Source: Deltaproteobacteria bacterium (GTDB lineage: Bacteria; Desulfobacterota; Desulfomonilia; UBA1062). From it: a DNA stretch of 38,572 bases. Positions within the stretch are counted from its first letter, which is position 1, and each line of letters begins with the position of its first letter. The notes under the pieces were generated by a model that searched no databases, was not told the origin of the DNA, and was given only the letters and a program-made list of their open reading frames with translations. Shown piece by piece: positions 239 to 5,269 of this stretch. The position numbers were made by a program, and so were the translations under genes. The DNA is taken from contig JAJFUP010000290.1 in the NCBI GenBank assembly GCA_021372395.1, positions 1 through 38,572 on the forward strand, written 5' to 3'.

Positions 239-1129
239 GTGAAGAAGGGGATCTGGCACGCCATCGGGGCCTATGGCCTGTGGGGCCTGCTGCCCGTGTA
301 CTGGAAATTACTCCAGCACGTCGCGGCGCCGCAGCTGCTCTGCCACCGGATCGTCTGGTCGTTCGTCTCGCTCCTTGCGGTCATCCTGGTCACGCGCAAG
401 TGGTATGCCTTCCGGCTCGCCATGGCCAGCAGGAAAGTGCTGCGGGCCTACACCGTGGCGGCCGTGCTGATCAGCATCAACTGGTTCACCTACATCTGGT
501 CGGTGAATGCCGGGTTCATCGTGGAGACCAGCCTCGGATACTTCATCAACCCGTTGCTCAGCGTGCTGCTGGGCGTCATCTTCTTCCGCGAGCGCCTCCG
601 GCCGTGGCAGTGGGCCTCCATCGCCCTGGCGGGAGCCGGCGTCGTGTACCTGACGGTCGCCTACGGGTCTTTACCCTGGATCGCTCTCGTCCTGGCCTTC
701 ACCTTCGCCGCCTACGGCATGGCCAAGAAGTCCGCCCCGCTGGGCTCGCTGTACGGGCTCACGCTGGAGACAGGCGTCCTGCTCGTGCCGGCCGTCTTCT
801 TCCTGGCCTATTCCGACCACGTAGGCCACGGCGCGTTCCTCCGCGCCGGCGTCGCCACGGATGTCCTGCTCCTGGGCGCGGGTGTCATCACCGCGGTCCC
901 GCTGCTGCTGTTTTCCTCTGCAGCCAGGCGCATCCCGTTGTCGCTGGTGGGCATCCTGCAGTACATCGCGCCCACCCTCCAGCTCATCCTCGGGGTCTTC
1001 CTCTACCGGGAACCCTTCTCCTCCGTGCAGTTCGTGGGCTTCGGCATGGTGTGGGTCGCGCTCATCATCTATGGCGTGGAAGGGCTCCTGGTCTACCGGT
1101 CCCACACCTTTCCCGTGGTCTCGGAGTAG
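239..1129 (+). CDS. rarD: RarD-type EamA family permease
   Basis: This 296-residue protein is almost entirely hydrophobic, with about ten predicted membrane helices, as expected of the EamA/DMT transporter superfamily. The N-terminus MKKGIWHAIGAYGLWGLLPVYWK and the stretch SLGYFINPLLSVLLGVIFFRERL match the RarD subgroup, first named for chloramphenicol sensitivity in E. coli. The second repeat contains IQYIAPTLQLILGVF-like sequence (here LQYIAPTLQLILGVF), also typical of RarD. The start is a GTG at 239 in the usual RarD position, behind a weak GGGGTGA. It sits in the inner membrane; its substrate is unknown. It lies four bases after the PAS gene and is convergent with purQ, with the repeat cluster between them. 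Confidence 0.85.
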   Translation: MKKGIWHAIGAYGLWGLLPVYWKLLQHVAAPQLLCHRIVWSFVSLLAVILVTRKWYAFRLAMASRKVLRAYTVAAVLISINWFTYIWSVNAGFIVETSLGYFINPLLSVLLGVIFFRERLRPWQWASIALAGAGVVYLTVAYGSLPWIALVLAFTFAAYGMAKKSAPLGSLYGLTLETGVLLVPAVFFLAYSDHVGHGAFLRAGVATDVLLLGAGVITAVPLLLFSSAARRIPLSLVGILQYIAPTLQLILGVFLYREPFSSVQFVGFGMVWVALIIYGVEGLLVYRSHTFPVVSE

Positions 1130-1181
1130 AGAGTCTGCGCGAGGAATCGAACAGGCTATTGAGCAGAGGATAAAAACCGTA

Positions 1182-1248
1182 CCTCATCAATCCGGTCGGC
1201 TCGCATGGTTTTCGCCTCAAGAGGAGCGAGCCGACCGGATTGATGAGG
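1182..1248. repeat. 23-bp perfect inverted repeat
   Basis: Positions 1182-1204 and 1226-1248 are exact reverse complements, separated by a 21-base loop. The right arm is also the first 23 bases of the first direct-repeat copy. As RNA it would form a long uninterrupted hairpin on either strand. It is not followed by a T-run, so it is not a classical intrinsic terminator. Confidence 0.9.
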
Positions 1249-1291
1249 CCAGTTTCGAAGAAACTGCAATATCGGATATGGCCCAGGCACA

Positions 1292-1316
1292 CCCCCTGTA
1301 GACAAGGGGGCATTTT
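1292..1316 (+). terminator. candidate terminator hairpin downstream of rarD
   Basis: CCCCCT at 1292-1297 pairs with AGGGGG at 1305-1310 around a 7-base loop and is followed by CATTTTCT. It is one of the hairpins inside the repeat units. The stem is short and the T-tract is broken, so its efficiency is uncertain. Confidence 0.4.
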
Positions 1317-1463
1317 CTCCCCTGCGAGCCGACCGGATTGAAGAGGCCAGTTTCGAAGAAACTGCAATATCGGGCAAGCCACAAAGCTCACCCTGCAGAT
1401 AAAGTGGGGTTTTTCCCTGCGTGAGGACCGTTTCGAAGAAACTGCACTCTCGGACAGAACCAT

Positions 1464-1498
1464 GCATGCCCCTGTATTTACTTGGGGGATGCTTTCTC
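1464..1498. terminator. candidate terminator hairpin between rarD and purQ
   Basis: GCATGCCCC at 1464-1472 pairs with GGGGGATGC at 1484-1492, with one internal mismatch and an 11-base loop. On the plus strand it is followed by TTTCTCTC. On the minus strand it lies 12 bases past the purQ stop, so it could end transcripts from both sides. Confidence 0.5.
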
Positions 1499-1503
1499 TC
1501 TGA

Positions 1504-2319
1504 TCAGAGTATTCCGGTGAGGAACTGCACCGCGTTGTCGAAGATGGCCATGCCCTCGCCTTTTTCCGGCAGGGTCTCGAGCCTGGTCCAGGAGGGGTGG
1601 TTGGTGGGGTGCGTGAAGGCCTCGGGGTGCGGCATGAGGCCGAAGATGCGCCCCGACCGGTCGCAGATGCCGGCGATGGCGCCTGCCGAGCCGTTGGGGT
1701 TGCACGGGTACTCCATGGTGGGGGACAGGCTCGCGTCGGCATAGGACAGCGCATTGAGGTTCGCCTGCGTTATTTCCCGGAGCGTTTCTTCGCTGTCGCA
1801 CACGAACTTTCCCTCGCCGTGGCGCACCGGAACGGTCAGGCTCTCGAGCCCCCGGGTGAAGATACAGGGGCTTTCCCTGTTCACCTTGAGCCTCACCCAG
1901 CGGTCCTCGAACTTGGCGGAGTCGTTGAAGGTGAGCGACACCCGGCGCTTGCCCAAAGGGTTGCCGGGGAGGATCCCCGATTTCACGAGCACCTGGAAAC
2001 CGTTGCACACCCCGAGGATGATCATGCCCCGGCCGATGAAGGCCTGGATCTCGTCGAAGAGGGTACGGCCCGTGGTCTTTATCCGGGCATACTTGAGACG
2101 GACGTTCTCCACCTGGGCCGAACCGAGGTCGTCGCCGTCGAGGAACCCTCCTGCGAGGTTGAGAAAGTGGTAATCCGCGACGGCATATTTCCCGCTGAGG
2201 ATCTCGCTCAGGTGGACGATGTCGGCCGCTGCCCCGGCCTTTCTGCACGCATGCGCCATCTCCATCTCGCAGTTCGTTCCGTAGCCCGTTATGACGAGTG
2301 AGCGTATCTGCTGTGTCAT
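1504..2319 (-). CDS. purQ: FGAM synthase glutaminase subunit PurQ
   Basis: PurQ is the class I glutamine amidotransferase subunit of phosphoribosylformylglycinamidine synthase, step four of purine synthesis. It releases ammonia from glutamine and passes it to PurL. The 271-residue protein shows the nucleophile motif GVCNGFQ with Cys105 and the C-terminal His-Glu pair in MPHPE (His231, Glu233), so the catalytic triad is complete. It is longer than the roughly 225-residue Bacillus-type PurQ and resembles the longer form that accompanies PurL proteins with a fused N-terminal domain. The ATG lies one base after the purL stop, so it is almost certainly translated from the purL message. No strong Shine-Dalgarno is visible, which suits translational coupling. 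Confidence 0.95.
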   Translation of the reverse strand: MTQQIRSLVITGYGTNCEMEMAHACRKAGAAADIVHLSEILSGKYAVADYHFLNLAGGFLDGDDLGSAQVENVRLKYARIKTTGRTLFDEIQAFIGRGMIILGVCNGFQVLVKSGILPGNPLGKRRVSLTFNDSAKFEDRWVRLKVNRESPCIFTRGLESLTVPVRHGEGKFVCDSEETLREITQANLNALSYADASLSPTMEYPCNPNGSAGAIAGICDRSGRIFGLMPHPEAFTHPTNHPSWTRLETLPEKGEGMAIFDNAVQFLTGIL

Positions 2320-2320
2320 G

Positions 2321-5269
2321 CTAGAAGTCCAGTGTCGCCTTCCAGGCGCTTTTCAGCGCCGTCAAGTCTTCGTCGATGATGACCGAGGAGTCCTGGCTGC
2401 GGATGGTGAGCCTGCCCTGGGGGGTGATGCTTCCGATGCACGCGGCATCGCCCCCGAAGAGTGCTTCCACGCGGGAGGCGTCTTCAGGCTTCACCTCGAT
2501 GACGATCCTGCTGGCCGTCTCGGAGTAGAGGATCTCCGTGTCCAGAAGGCCCGGGTCGGCACTGATTTTTCCGAGGTCGATCTCCATGCCGAACCCCCCG
2601 GCAAAGGCCATCTCGGCCAGGCACACGGCCAGACCGCCGTCCGAGATGTCGTGGGCCGCCCGGATGAGGCCTCCGCTGATGGCCCGGTGGAGCGTGCGGT
2701 AACGTTCCAGGGCGGTTTTCGCGTCCACCTCCGGCACCACGGTGCCCGTCATACCCAGGGAGGCGAGGTACTCGCTCCCGCCGAGCTCTCTTTTCGTCCG
2801 GCCCAGGACATAGACGAGGTCGCCGGGGAGCTTGACGTCCATGGTGACGGCGGTAAAGACGTCGTCTATCCTGCCGATGACCGAGACCAGGAGCGTGGGC
2901 GGGATGGAGATCTTGATGTCTCCGCCGATGTAGTCGTTCTTCATGCTGTCCTTGCCCGAGATCAGGGGACACCGGAAAGCCCTGGTGTAGGCCGACAGGG
3001 CCTGGTTCGCCCGCACGAGCTGGGCGAGCTTGAACTCGCCGTCCGGGTTCTTCTCGCTCTGCACCGGGTCGCACCAGCAGAAGTTGTCGAGGCTGGCCCA
3101 GCGGTCCGGGTTGCCCCCCACGCACACGTAGTTCCGCAAGGCCTCGTCCAGCGCACAGGCGGCCATGTGATAGGTGTCGAGGTCCGAGTACCTGGGCACG
3201 ATGCCGTTTGCCACCACCACGCCCTCGGTTGAATCCAGGAGCGGGCGAATCACGGCCGCGTCCGACGGCCCGTCGCAGGAGAGCCCTACCAGAGGTTTTA
3301 CCACGGAGCCTCCCTGGACCTCGTGGTCGTACTGCCGGATCACGAACTCTTTCGAGCAGATGTTCAGGCGGCCCAGCATCTCGCAGAGTTTCCCCGCGTG
3401 GTCGGCGGGCACAGGGGTGGGGAGATCCTCGTGTATCACCGGGTTCCAGCGGGCCGTGAGCTGCATCTTCGGCAGGCCGTCGTGGAGGAAGTCCAGGTGC
3501 AGGCAGCAGACGGTCCGGCCGGCATAGGTGCAGTGGAAGAAACCGGAGTCGGTGAACGTGCCGATCACCGTGGATTCCACGTCCATCTGGGACGAGAGCG
3601 CGAGGAACGCCGGCACCTGCTCCTCGGGCACTGCGAGCGTCATGCGCTCCTGGGCCTCGGAGAGCAGGATCTCCCAGGGGCTCAGGCCCACGTACTTGAG
3701 CGGGGGCTTGTCGAGCTCGATGGTGCAGCCGCCCGAGAGCGTGGCCATCTCTCCCACCGAAGACGAGAGCCCGCCTGCGCCGTTGTCGGTGATGGCCCGG
3801 TAGATGCCCAGGTCCCGCGCCTTGAGCAGGAAATCGGTGAGCTTTTTCTGGGTGATGGGGTCCCCGATCTGCACCGCGGAGGTGGGGGATGCCTCGTGGA
3901 GTTCCTCGGAGGAGAAGGTCGCCCCGTGGATGCCGTCCTTGCCGATCCTGCCTCCGGACATGACGATGCGGTCGCCCGGCTTGATCTTTTTCAGGTGGGA
4001 GGGCTCGCCGCCGACCTCCCGGGGCATGATCCCGGCTGTCCCGCAGTAGACCAGCGGCTTGCCGAGGTACCTCTCGTCGAACACGATGCACCCGTTGACC
4101 GTGGGGATGCCCGACTTGTTGCCGCCGTGCTCGACGCCTTCCCGGACGCCTTCGAAGATCCGGCGCGGGTGGAGGATCTTGGGCGGAAGCTCAGACGTGT
4201 AAAAGGGGCTCGCAAAGCAGAACACGTCGGTGTTGAAGATGAGCTTGGATCCCATCCCGGTGCCGAAGGGGTCGCGGTTGACCCCGACGATGCCGGTGAG
4301 CGCCCCGCCGTACGGGTCCAGGGCGGACGGGGAGTTGTGGGTCTCCACCTTGAACACCAGGTTATAGTCTTCGTTGAAACGGATGACGCCGGCATTGTCC
4401 GTGAAGACGCTCACGCAGATGTCTTCCGGGCCTAAAAGACGCCGTATCTCAGAGGTGGAGCCCTTTATGTAGGTGGAAAAGAGCGAGGATATTTCGGTGA
4501 TGTGCCCCTGCTCCTCGTAGCGGATGTCCGCGTTGAAGATCTTGTGCTTGCAGTGCTCCGACCAGGTCTGTGCCAGGGCCTCGAGCTCCACGTCCGTGAT
4601 GGTTTCCGTGAGCCCGACGCTTCTGCGGTGAGCGCGCACCTCCCTGTCCTCCAGGTATCGCGCAATGACCTTGAGCTCTTCCACGGTGAGCGCCAGCGTC
4701 CTTTCCTGGGAAAGCTTCAGCAGCGCCTCGTCGGACAGAGCCAGGGAAACGGTCTCGACTTCTGCCTTGTGGAGCATGGTGACCCGCGGGATATACGGTT
4801 CTATGGCAGGGCACTCATCAACCGGGAAGACCCGGATGTGCTGGATGAGCTCGTTCGCCAGGCAATCCTCGGCGATCGACTCTACGAGATCCCTGGGGAG
4901 GGATCCGTGAAGCAGGTAGGCCCGGGACGAAAACACGGGGATATCTTTCCCGGAGATCAGCTTCAGCGCGTACCGGGCGCTGTTCCCCACGTTGTCCGTG
5001 ACCCCGGGCTTGTATCCGATCTCGATGTACCAGCAAAAATCGCTGCGCAGGAGGGAGCCCACGGATATGTCCTGGATGACGGGGTCGCAGAAGGCCTCTT
5101 CGAGCCATTCCCCCTTCAGCCCGTCGGAGTCTATGCTGTAGATGTCCAGGCAGGAGATCTTTTCAAGGGGGGAAAGCTGTGGAAAGGCGTGGAGGATCTG
5201 ACGCTTCACCCGTTCGCCGCGGGCATCGAAGAGATGCGGCTTGAGGCCTACCTCCACGCGGGTAGCCAT
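2321..5269 (-). CDS. purL: FGAM synthase subunit PurL with PurS-like N-terminus
   Basis: This 982-residue protein is the synthetase subunit that converts FGAR plus ammonia and ATP to FGAM in the cytoplasm. Residues about 1-160 form two PurS-like halves, one starting VEVGLKPHLFDARG and the other YIEIGYKPGVTDNVGNSA. The linker motif TWSEHCKHK follows at about 236-243. Next come the first AIRS-type ATP-binding half (VETHNSPSALDPYGGALTG, then SGGRIGKDGIHGATFSSEE), AITDNGAGGLSSSVGEMA, and a second AIRS-type half. It lacks the C-terminal glutaminase of the ~1300-residue E. coli enzyme; that role falls to purQ next door. It is preceded by the DksA-like gene with a 5-base gap, and AAGGGTAGG upstream serves as ribosome binding site. 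Confidence 0.95.
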   Translation of the reverse strand: MATRVEVGLKPHLFDARGERVKRQILHAFPQLSPLEKISCLDIYSIDSDGLKGEWLEEAFCDPVIQDISVGSLLRSDFCWYIEIGYKPGVTDNVGNSARYALKLISGKDIPVFSSRAYLLHGSLPRDLVESIAEDCLANELIQHIRVFPVDECPAIEPYIPRVTMLHKAEVETVSLALSDEALLKLSQERTLALTVEELKVIARYLEDREVRAHRRSVGLTETITDVELEALAQTWSEHCKHKIFNADIRYEEQGHITEISSLFSTYIKGSTSEIRRLLGPEDICVSVFTDNAGVIRFNEDYNLVFKVETHNSPSALDPYGGALTGIVGVNRDPFGTGMGSKLIFNTDVFCFASPFYTSELPPKILHPRRIFEGVREGVEHGGNKSGIPTVNGCIVFDERYLGKPLVYCGTAGIMPREVGGEPSHLKKIKPGDRIVMSGGRIGKDGIHGATFSSEELHEASPTSAVQIGDPITQKKLTDFLLKARDLGIYRAITDNGAGGLSSSVGEMATLSGGCTIELDKPPLKYVGLSPWEILLSEAQERMTLAVPEEQVPAFLALSSQMDVESTVIGTFTDSGFFHCTYAGRTVCCLHLDFLHDGLPKMQLTARWNPVIHEDLPTPVPADHAGKLCEMLGRLNICSKEFVIRQYDHEVQGGSVVKPLVGLSCDGPSDAAVIRPLLDSTEGVVVANGIVPRYSDLDTYHMAACALDEALRNYVCVGGNPDRWASLDNFCWCDPVQSEKNPDGEFKLAQLVRANQALSAYTRAFRCPLISGKDSMKNDYIGGDIKISIPPTLLVSVIGRIDDVFTAVTMDVKLPGDLVYVLGRTKRELGGSEYLASLGMTGTVVPEVDAKTALERYRTLHRAISGGLIRAAHDISDGGLAVCLAEMAFAGGFGMEIDLGKISADPGLLDTEILYSETASRIVIEVKPEDASRVEALFGGDAACIGSITPQGRLTIRSQDSSVIIDEDLTALKSAWKATLDF

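Follow-up and report, generated by a model that had tools for sequence, protein, structure and literature searches.

A scattered family of REP-like hairpins and a local three-unit array between convergent genes in a Desulfobacterota genome

ERIC elements are intergenic and have a conserved core with a central palindrome. The sizes of RU repeats are given in an excerpt of PMC2759123. REPs are reported between convergent and tandem genes in passages of PMC3733652, and published RAYT genes are described as flanked by REPs in part of the text of PMC2817692. Excerpts of the REPIN work report compensated changes (PMC3116915), so compensation is not in itself new. Template switching has been proposed, in passages of PMC8794818, to create and maintain the hairpins of RNA genes. 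We describe here a locus in a stretch of 38,572 nucleotides (hereafter referred to as the window) from a Deltaproteobacteria bacterium, in which a long hairpin adjoins a three-unit tandem repeat. We consider it likely that this locus is one copy of a dispersed REP-like hairpin family of gene 3' ends, the right half and 3' flank of which were amplified into three terminator-like units.

The three-unit array and its long hairpin

The array lies between two convergent genes, an EamA-family ORF (+ strand) and a GATase_5 ORF (- strand), as the original prediction had it (Table 1). The three-copy repeat proposed there was also recovered: repeat finding identified in-register copies, those at 1226 and 1324 being identical at 49 of 50 bases. 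The spacings between the three copies are 98 and then 80 bases, with the third core lying at the shorter distance; the third in-register copy (1404-1453) is 64% identical overall, with an intact core.

Table 1. Positions of the hairpin, repeat units, terminator-like sites and neighbouring ORFs in the window
Feature	Position	Strand	Basis
Hairpin element of the family (5' flank AAAAACCGTA, A-rich; long stem; 3' flank GGCC)	1170..1262	+	R1, 85.7 bits, E 1.9e-15
Left arm of perfect 23-bp inverted repeat	1182..1204	+	100% complementary, 21 nt between arms
Right arm of inverted repeat, also start of unit 1	1226..1248	+	Inverted-repeat finding
Repeat unit 1, conserved 50-base block (right arm and GTTTC-GAA-GAAAC core)	1226..1275	+	Repeat finding
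Repeat unit 2, conserved block (second right-arm copy without its own left arm, and core)	1324..1373	+	49/50 against unit 1
Unit 3 (core, most of right arm lost)	1422..1454	+	88% over 33 bases against unit 1 (blastn)
Terminator-like hairpin of unit 1, then CATTTTCTCC	1292..1310	+	Consensus scan; -11.9 kcal/mol for 1288-1320
Terminator-like hairpin of unit 2, then TTTTCCCTGC	1390..1410	+	Consensus scan; -8.7 kcal/mol for 1386-1416
Terminator-like hairpin of unit 3, then ATGCTTTCTC	1469..1488	+	Consensus scan; -14.6 kcal/mol for 1462-1500
EamA-family transporter ORF, 3' end toward array	239..1129	+	PF00892, E 8.6e-17
GATase_5 ORF (PurQ-like), 3' end toward array	1504..2319	-	PF13507, E 4.9e-85
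PurL-like ORF, beyond GATase_5 ORF	2321-5269	-	AIRS_C, E 1.7e-53

Units 1 and 2 are near-identical over their first 50 bases only, the remainder aligning at 30 of 49 columns, and this restriction to 50 bases indicates that they did not arise by a simple recent duplication of 98 bp. The recent duplication or gene conversion suggested earlier is thus tenable for the 50-base block, but not for the whole unit. The alignment score of the stretches between cores was reached by none of 500 mononucleotide shuffles; a CRISPR reading was rejected, because these stretches are akin to each other rather than being unrelated spacers. An alternation of orientation, as in BIMEs, was not found, the units being direct repeats of a half-element.

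The core 16-mer GTTTCGAAGAAACTGC is exact at 1252, 1350 and 1430 and at no other site in the own genome (2,994,680 bases, 306 contigs). It occurs with two mismatches at three further places in this genome, around which no trace of the repeat unit was visible by eye, and a single diverged relative was detected at C47:8250-8293 (82%, E 5e-4). Searches with the 371-base region found nothing at E ≤ 0.001 among 59 other relatives, and plasmids and phages likewise gave nothing at E ≤ 0.1. The core, which the original prediction named in its title, is local to the array by that prediction's own criterion, its exact copies being confined to the array. We read the three-unit repeat as a local by-product of a scattered hairpin family.

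The key feature of the locus, absent from the earlier account, is the 23-bp inverted repeat at the left edge of the array (1182-1204/1226-1248). The interval 1170-1260 folds with a z-score of -8.36. No Rfam match reached the cut-off in positions 900-1800; two mir-1420 matches on the palindrome (28.5 and 26.3 bits, against a cut-off of 70) and an HCV_SL1412 match in the same interval (E 5) were read as chance.

Each core is followed by one + strand terminator-like site, in line with the segment predicted for each unit. On pattern and energy, all three units are predicted to carry an intrinsic terminator (a GC-rich hairpin with a T-rich run directly after it), and positions 1100-1560 contain three such + strand sites, against a mean of 0.4 (sd 0.6) in shuffles. 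EamA transcripts would end at these sites. In the computed fold, the large hairpin exits on the - strand into TACGGTTTTTAT, and this hairpin with its T-rich exit could end the purine-synthesis transcript. A consensus scan found no promoter-like sites in the array, but just 0.3 were expected by chance. Elsewhere in the window, positions 101-378 are 96% identical to the end of another contig of the own genome (C242:3054-3331), possibly through strain variation or a collapsed assembly overlap.

Copies in the own genome and in related genomes

Blastn of the hairpin stretch against the own genome identified similar sequences on contigs C65 (E 0.004), C47 (0.0075), C190 and C152 (both 1.19), which by eye all show a long stem between an A-rich lead and a GG exit. 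These matches were weak. The six exact AAAACCGTACC sites in this genome comprise five such hairpins and one site inside an ORF. Covariance model R1 was built with five copies from blastn and pattern matches as seeds, two of them with a blastn E of about 1. The R1 match of the array hairpin (Table 1) is partly by construction, because this copy is among the five seeds; it had been linked to other copies by blastn before the model was made. At E ≤ 10, R1 yielded 99 matches in the own genome, with the best 150 of 699 candidates scored; these reduce to at least 52 distinct places, because the palindrome is matched on both strands. A scan of fetched loci with R1 added two more, giving at least 54 in total, and a second model (R2; 16 rows, four of them from the same-genus genome G004) suggests two further candidates (C257 and C37). 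The weakest of the 54 places is near chance (C35:9045, 21.3 bits, E 0.6), and the 54 do not represent 54 independent loci, because some lie on near-identical contig pairs (C190/C109 and C99/C235, about 96%).

An approximate consensus is GGCAGGGGAAAACCTGACCTGTTCATTTTGGTCATCTCGCC-loop-GGCGAGATGACCAAAATGAACAGGCC; conservation is weaker over about 50 bp to either side of the hairpin (flank profile, 53 of the 54 copies). The copy at C47:8194 has the hairpin type, 21-base loop and 3' flank of the array copy and also lies between convergent ORFs. Another copy, on C79 (L018, 1481-1562), has a partial internal duplication of its stem, resulting in two alternative pairings. No Rfam match reached the cut-off at seven loci with other family copies. 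We found no published account of this hairpin family; our coverage of the literature is incomplete, and absence from print is not claimed. It is best read as a new, untagged, REP-like family.

Gene context was determined with a home-made ORF caller. Both neighbours were identified for 47 of the 54 places (19 convergent, 25 tandem, 3 divergent), six lack a neighbour, and one overlaps a called ORF, at its start. In 45 fetched stretches, gaps of at least 60 bp with an element were convergent in 18 cases, tandem in 22 and divergent in 3, versus 2, 17 and 13, respectively, for element-free gaps (1, 11 and 11 when the window is left out), these control gaps lying close to elements rather than forming a random sample. 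The difference between convergent and divergent gaps, with and without an element, was significant (Fisher p = 2.2e-5): the hairpin family favours convergent over divergent gaps, i.e. the 3' ends of genes. The tandem gaps displayed no strand preference (14 same, 11 opposite). The suggestion of a REP/BIME-like element at convergent 3' ends therefore holds through the adjoining long hairpin, which is scattered and placed at 3' ends, but not through the GTTTC-GAA-GAAAC core.

Among 24 genomes of the taxonomic family, R1 at E ≤ 1e-4 matched the own genome, G004 (six matches) and G003 (three matches), and gave no match in the other 21 (best 150 candidates per genome). Two of the three G003 matches look unrelated by eye, and the third has its counterpart in G004. 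These two loci (L093, G004:C32; L094, G003:C56) have the same hairpin and the same flanks in opposite orientation, and constitute a shared orthologous hairpin. In 395 genomes of the phylum, R1 at E ≤ 1e-6 matched the own genome and G004 alone, under stricter filters and with the best 11 candidates per genome, so that even the own genome gave 11 matches only. With R2 (E ≤ 0.01, both strands), the five genomes of the genus gave 99 matches (own genome), 23 (G004), 5 (G002), 5 (G003) and 0 (G001); outside the own genome these counts are upper bounds for the family, because some of the matches, in G003 for example, look unrelated by eye. Among the hairpins read, three of G004 and one of G002 contain GCATCTCG in the stem. 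Related hairpins are present in at least two of the four other genomes of the genus, and none was found outside the genus at the thresholds used. Scoring was confined to the best 150 candidates per genome, and to the best 11 in the phylum search, so that copy counts are lower bounds and absences weak. A single scan of a contig collection with the inner hairpin pattern, from which the own genome was possibly left out, returned three candidate stretches, in Mycobacterium sp., Mycolicibacterium sp. and Candidatus Galacturonibacter soehngenii.

The same convergent EamA-PurQ pair is found in G002, with 75 bp between the stop codons, versus 374 bp in the window. This shorter gap is free of family elements and contains only a short inverted repeat, GTGTC/GACAC. 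In G001, G003 and G004, the DNA fetched beside PurQ does not match the EamA end (bar one 17-base match in G001), and these genomes therefore say nothing on the empty site. The one empty site is between species, and corresponds to a gain or a loss rather than to proven transposition.

Matched arms and competing explanations

At the 54 places, the arms have a median length of 24 bp; 25 are perfect, and 57 mismatches occur in 1286 pairs. Loops are of at most 10 nt in 49. Among the 50 copies that could be anchored, left-arm identity over 20 nt averages 64%, and 48 of these left arms are distinct: the stems have drifted, yet their arms remain matched. In the 16-row alignment, changes were two-sided in 79 cells and one-sided in 2, with 97.6% paired; none of 500 shuffles reached any of five measures, slid controls paired at 33-46%, and the first five rows alone behaved likewise in the same pairing test. 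Such high pairing is partly due to ascertainment, because the models used to collect the places score pairing favourably. Covariance-type models treat G-U more kindly than A-C. This bias should have favoured G-U, but no excess was seen: the mismatches comprise 17 G-U, 21 A-C and 19 others, with no preference for wobble. For two-sided changes from the commonest base in the 50 copies, 128 of 204 were double transversions, which cannot arise by way of a single G-U intermediate. More wobble would be expected under RNA-level selection alone, and we infer that a DNA-level process fits better.

Contigs C190 and C109 are about 96% identical, and one hairpin of C190 is missing from C109; at the next hairpin, T/A is replaced by A/T in both arms, beside one single-arm difference. 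These contigs may represent strains or paralogues. In a second pair of contigs, also about 96% identical (L084, C99:339; L085, C235:9046), the hairpins differ, one being perfect and the other having two mismatches; the left arm of the perfect hairpin departs from the family consensus, yet matches its own right arm. Also missing from C109 is an insert of about 124 bp in C190 (L088, about 1883-2006), containing GTGTCACCCCCGCGAAAGCGGGGGTCC and an inverted partner, which together resemble a CGTC-type REP pair. Similar sequence follows the match at L078:7213.

On the reading that we prefer, a non-autonomous REP-like palindrome arrived or arose at the locus, as at other gene ends, and the family would have spread as a small non-autonomous element. 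The right arm and 3' flank would have been copied in place, giving three tandem units, each with a terminator-like hairpin, and units 1 and 2 were probably homogenised over their 50-base block later than over the rest. The arms were probably kept matched by the rewriting of each mismatch from the opposite arm (template switching at a hairpin formed in replication), by DNA-level selection, or by both. The more specific proposal of a new hairpin family whose arms are continually rewritten from each other in replication, such that palindromes persist without RNA selection, is put forward tentatively. About as plausible, and likewise short of an even chance, is that the hairpins are kept, with no mutational mechanism, by selection on transcribed 3' ends for termination or mRNA protection. 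Such roles are proposed for REPs in part of the text of PMC3733652, and the placement at 3' ends is as this explanation would have it, but G-U is not in excess of A-C among the mismatches, double transversions predominate among the paired changes and tandem gaps lack an orientation bias. Selection may instead act on both strands, or on DNA hairpins.

The conserved flanks, of about 50 bp per side, and the presence and absence of a hairpin between C190 and C109 would be consistent with a MITE that has terminal inverted repeats and is moved by a DNA transposase. Terminal inverted repeats were first seen in four copies, but were not borne out by eye when 23 of 53 copies, including the weakest match (C35:9045), were aligned. 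With no convincing terminal inverted repeats or target duplications readable by eye, and with conservation fading gradually, we consider a MITE unlikely. Slightly less probable still is a plain local duplication beside an ordinary terminator, in which the hairpin and repeats would have no family and no wider meaning. The restriction of the exact core to the array and the failure to match the 371-base region elsewhere (59 other relatives, plasmids, phages) within the limits applied are in its favour, but the adjoining hairpin recurs at 53 other places in the own genome, with a common stem consensus and flanks, and the C47:8194 copy reproduces its type, loop, 3' flank and convergent setting. Local duplication is thus largely refuted for the hairpin, but still stands for the three-unit array. 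We consider it very improbable that the units are a tandem series of three small RNA genes with one hairpin and one terminator apiece: each unit does have a hairpin core that is conserved, with a terminator-like hairpin after it, and unit 3 folds better than shuffles (z -2.53), but units 1 and 2 fold no better than shuffles (z -0.71 and -0.35), the only notable Rfam matches are those to mir-1420, below the cut-off and on the palindrome, and no match was found in relatives. The lack of a promoter-like site is a weak point against such genes.

Long perfect palindromes should decay quickly unless restored by something. The presence in one genome of about 50 related copies, far drifted yet self-matched, therefore provides a natural data set for weighing arm-to-arm repair against selection, and the near-identical contig pairs of the own assembly already show candidate single events. 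If template switching is responsible, the family would preserve a record of copying between arms at about 50 sites in a single genome. The locus also indicates that a dispersed hairpin can seed a local multi-terminator-like array between convergent genes. We consider the family moderately interesting for palindrome evolution, its function and mobility being what we infer.

Comparison with known repeat systems

The hairpin family resembles the GTAG-superfamily REP/BIME/REPIN sequences, as described in excerpts of PMC3733652, PMC2817692 and PMC3116915, in consisting of dispersed intergenic palindromes, mostly in convergent or tandem gaps, with compensated stem changes. It has the many-copy intergenic palindromes characteristic of REPs (54 places, one overlapping an ORF start). 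Its stem is about 24 bp long, whereas whole REPs are given as 20-40 bp in a passage of PMC3733652. In the 10-12 nt of each outer flank at the 54 places, a search for a GTAG-type head found one GTGG, no GTAG and no GGAG. BIMEs are alternating REP clusters, whereas the array consists of direct half-element repeats and all three hairpins of C190 have their best score on one and the same strand. The own genome (98.68% complete) contains two Y1_Tnp (IS200/RAYT-like) genes, at C235:1583-1909 and C131:8153-8479. Within about 0.6-0.9 kb on each side of both, neither a long spaced inverted repeat nor a family hairpin was found; each of these contigs has one family hairpin, about 7-8 kb from the Y1_Tnp gene. 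Mobilisation by a RAYT in cis is therefore not supported, as neither gene is flanked by family hairpins, and no mobiliser of the family was found in this genome.

A likeness was also identified to the CGTC-tagged REPs, which are presented in part of PMC3733652 as dispersed palindromes without a dedicated transposase, with a ..GTC tag followed by a stem beginning AT. GTCAT occurs inside the left arm in 36 of the 54 copies, preceded by G in 22, C in 8, A in 3 and T in 3, and CGTC occurs in the left part of just 13 of the 54. In CGTC-tagged REPs, the tag is unpaired and the stem is of 8-9 bp, according to the same partial source, whereas here GTC lies within the stem of about 24 bp; as an unpaired outer tag, 108 flank readings gave no CGTC and two TGTC. 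The family may have a common origin with CGTC-type REPs.

The likeness to ERIC/RU-type repeats of 100-170 bp is by description alone, and consists of a conserved core of about 150 bp, a central palindrome and an intergenic position; the hairpin family differs from these repeats in that its arms stay matched while its flanks decay. Paired changes and perfect stems are features shared with the template-switching hairpins of RNA genes, in the part of PMC8794818 that describes them, but the hairpins reported here are dispersed, bacterial and apparently non-genic, with little wobble signal. As it has no outer tags and a far longer stem, and as the Y1_Tnp genes are unflanked, the family is not filed with the GTAG or CGTC REPs. 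It is REP-type in manner, and is set apart by its stem length, its missing outer tag and its missing wobble.
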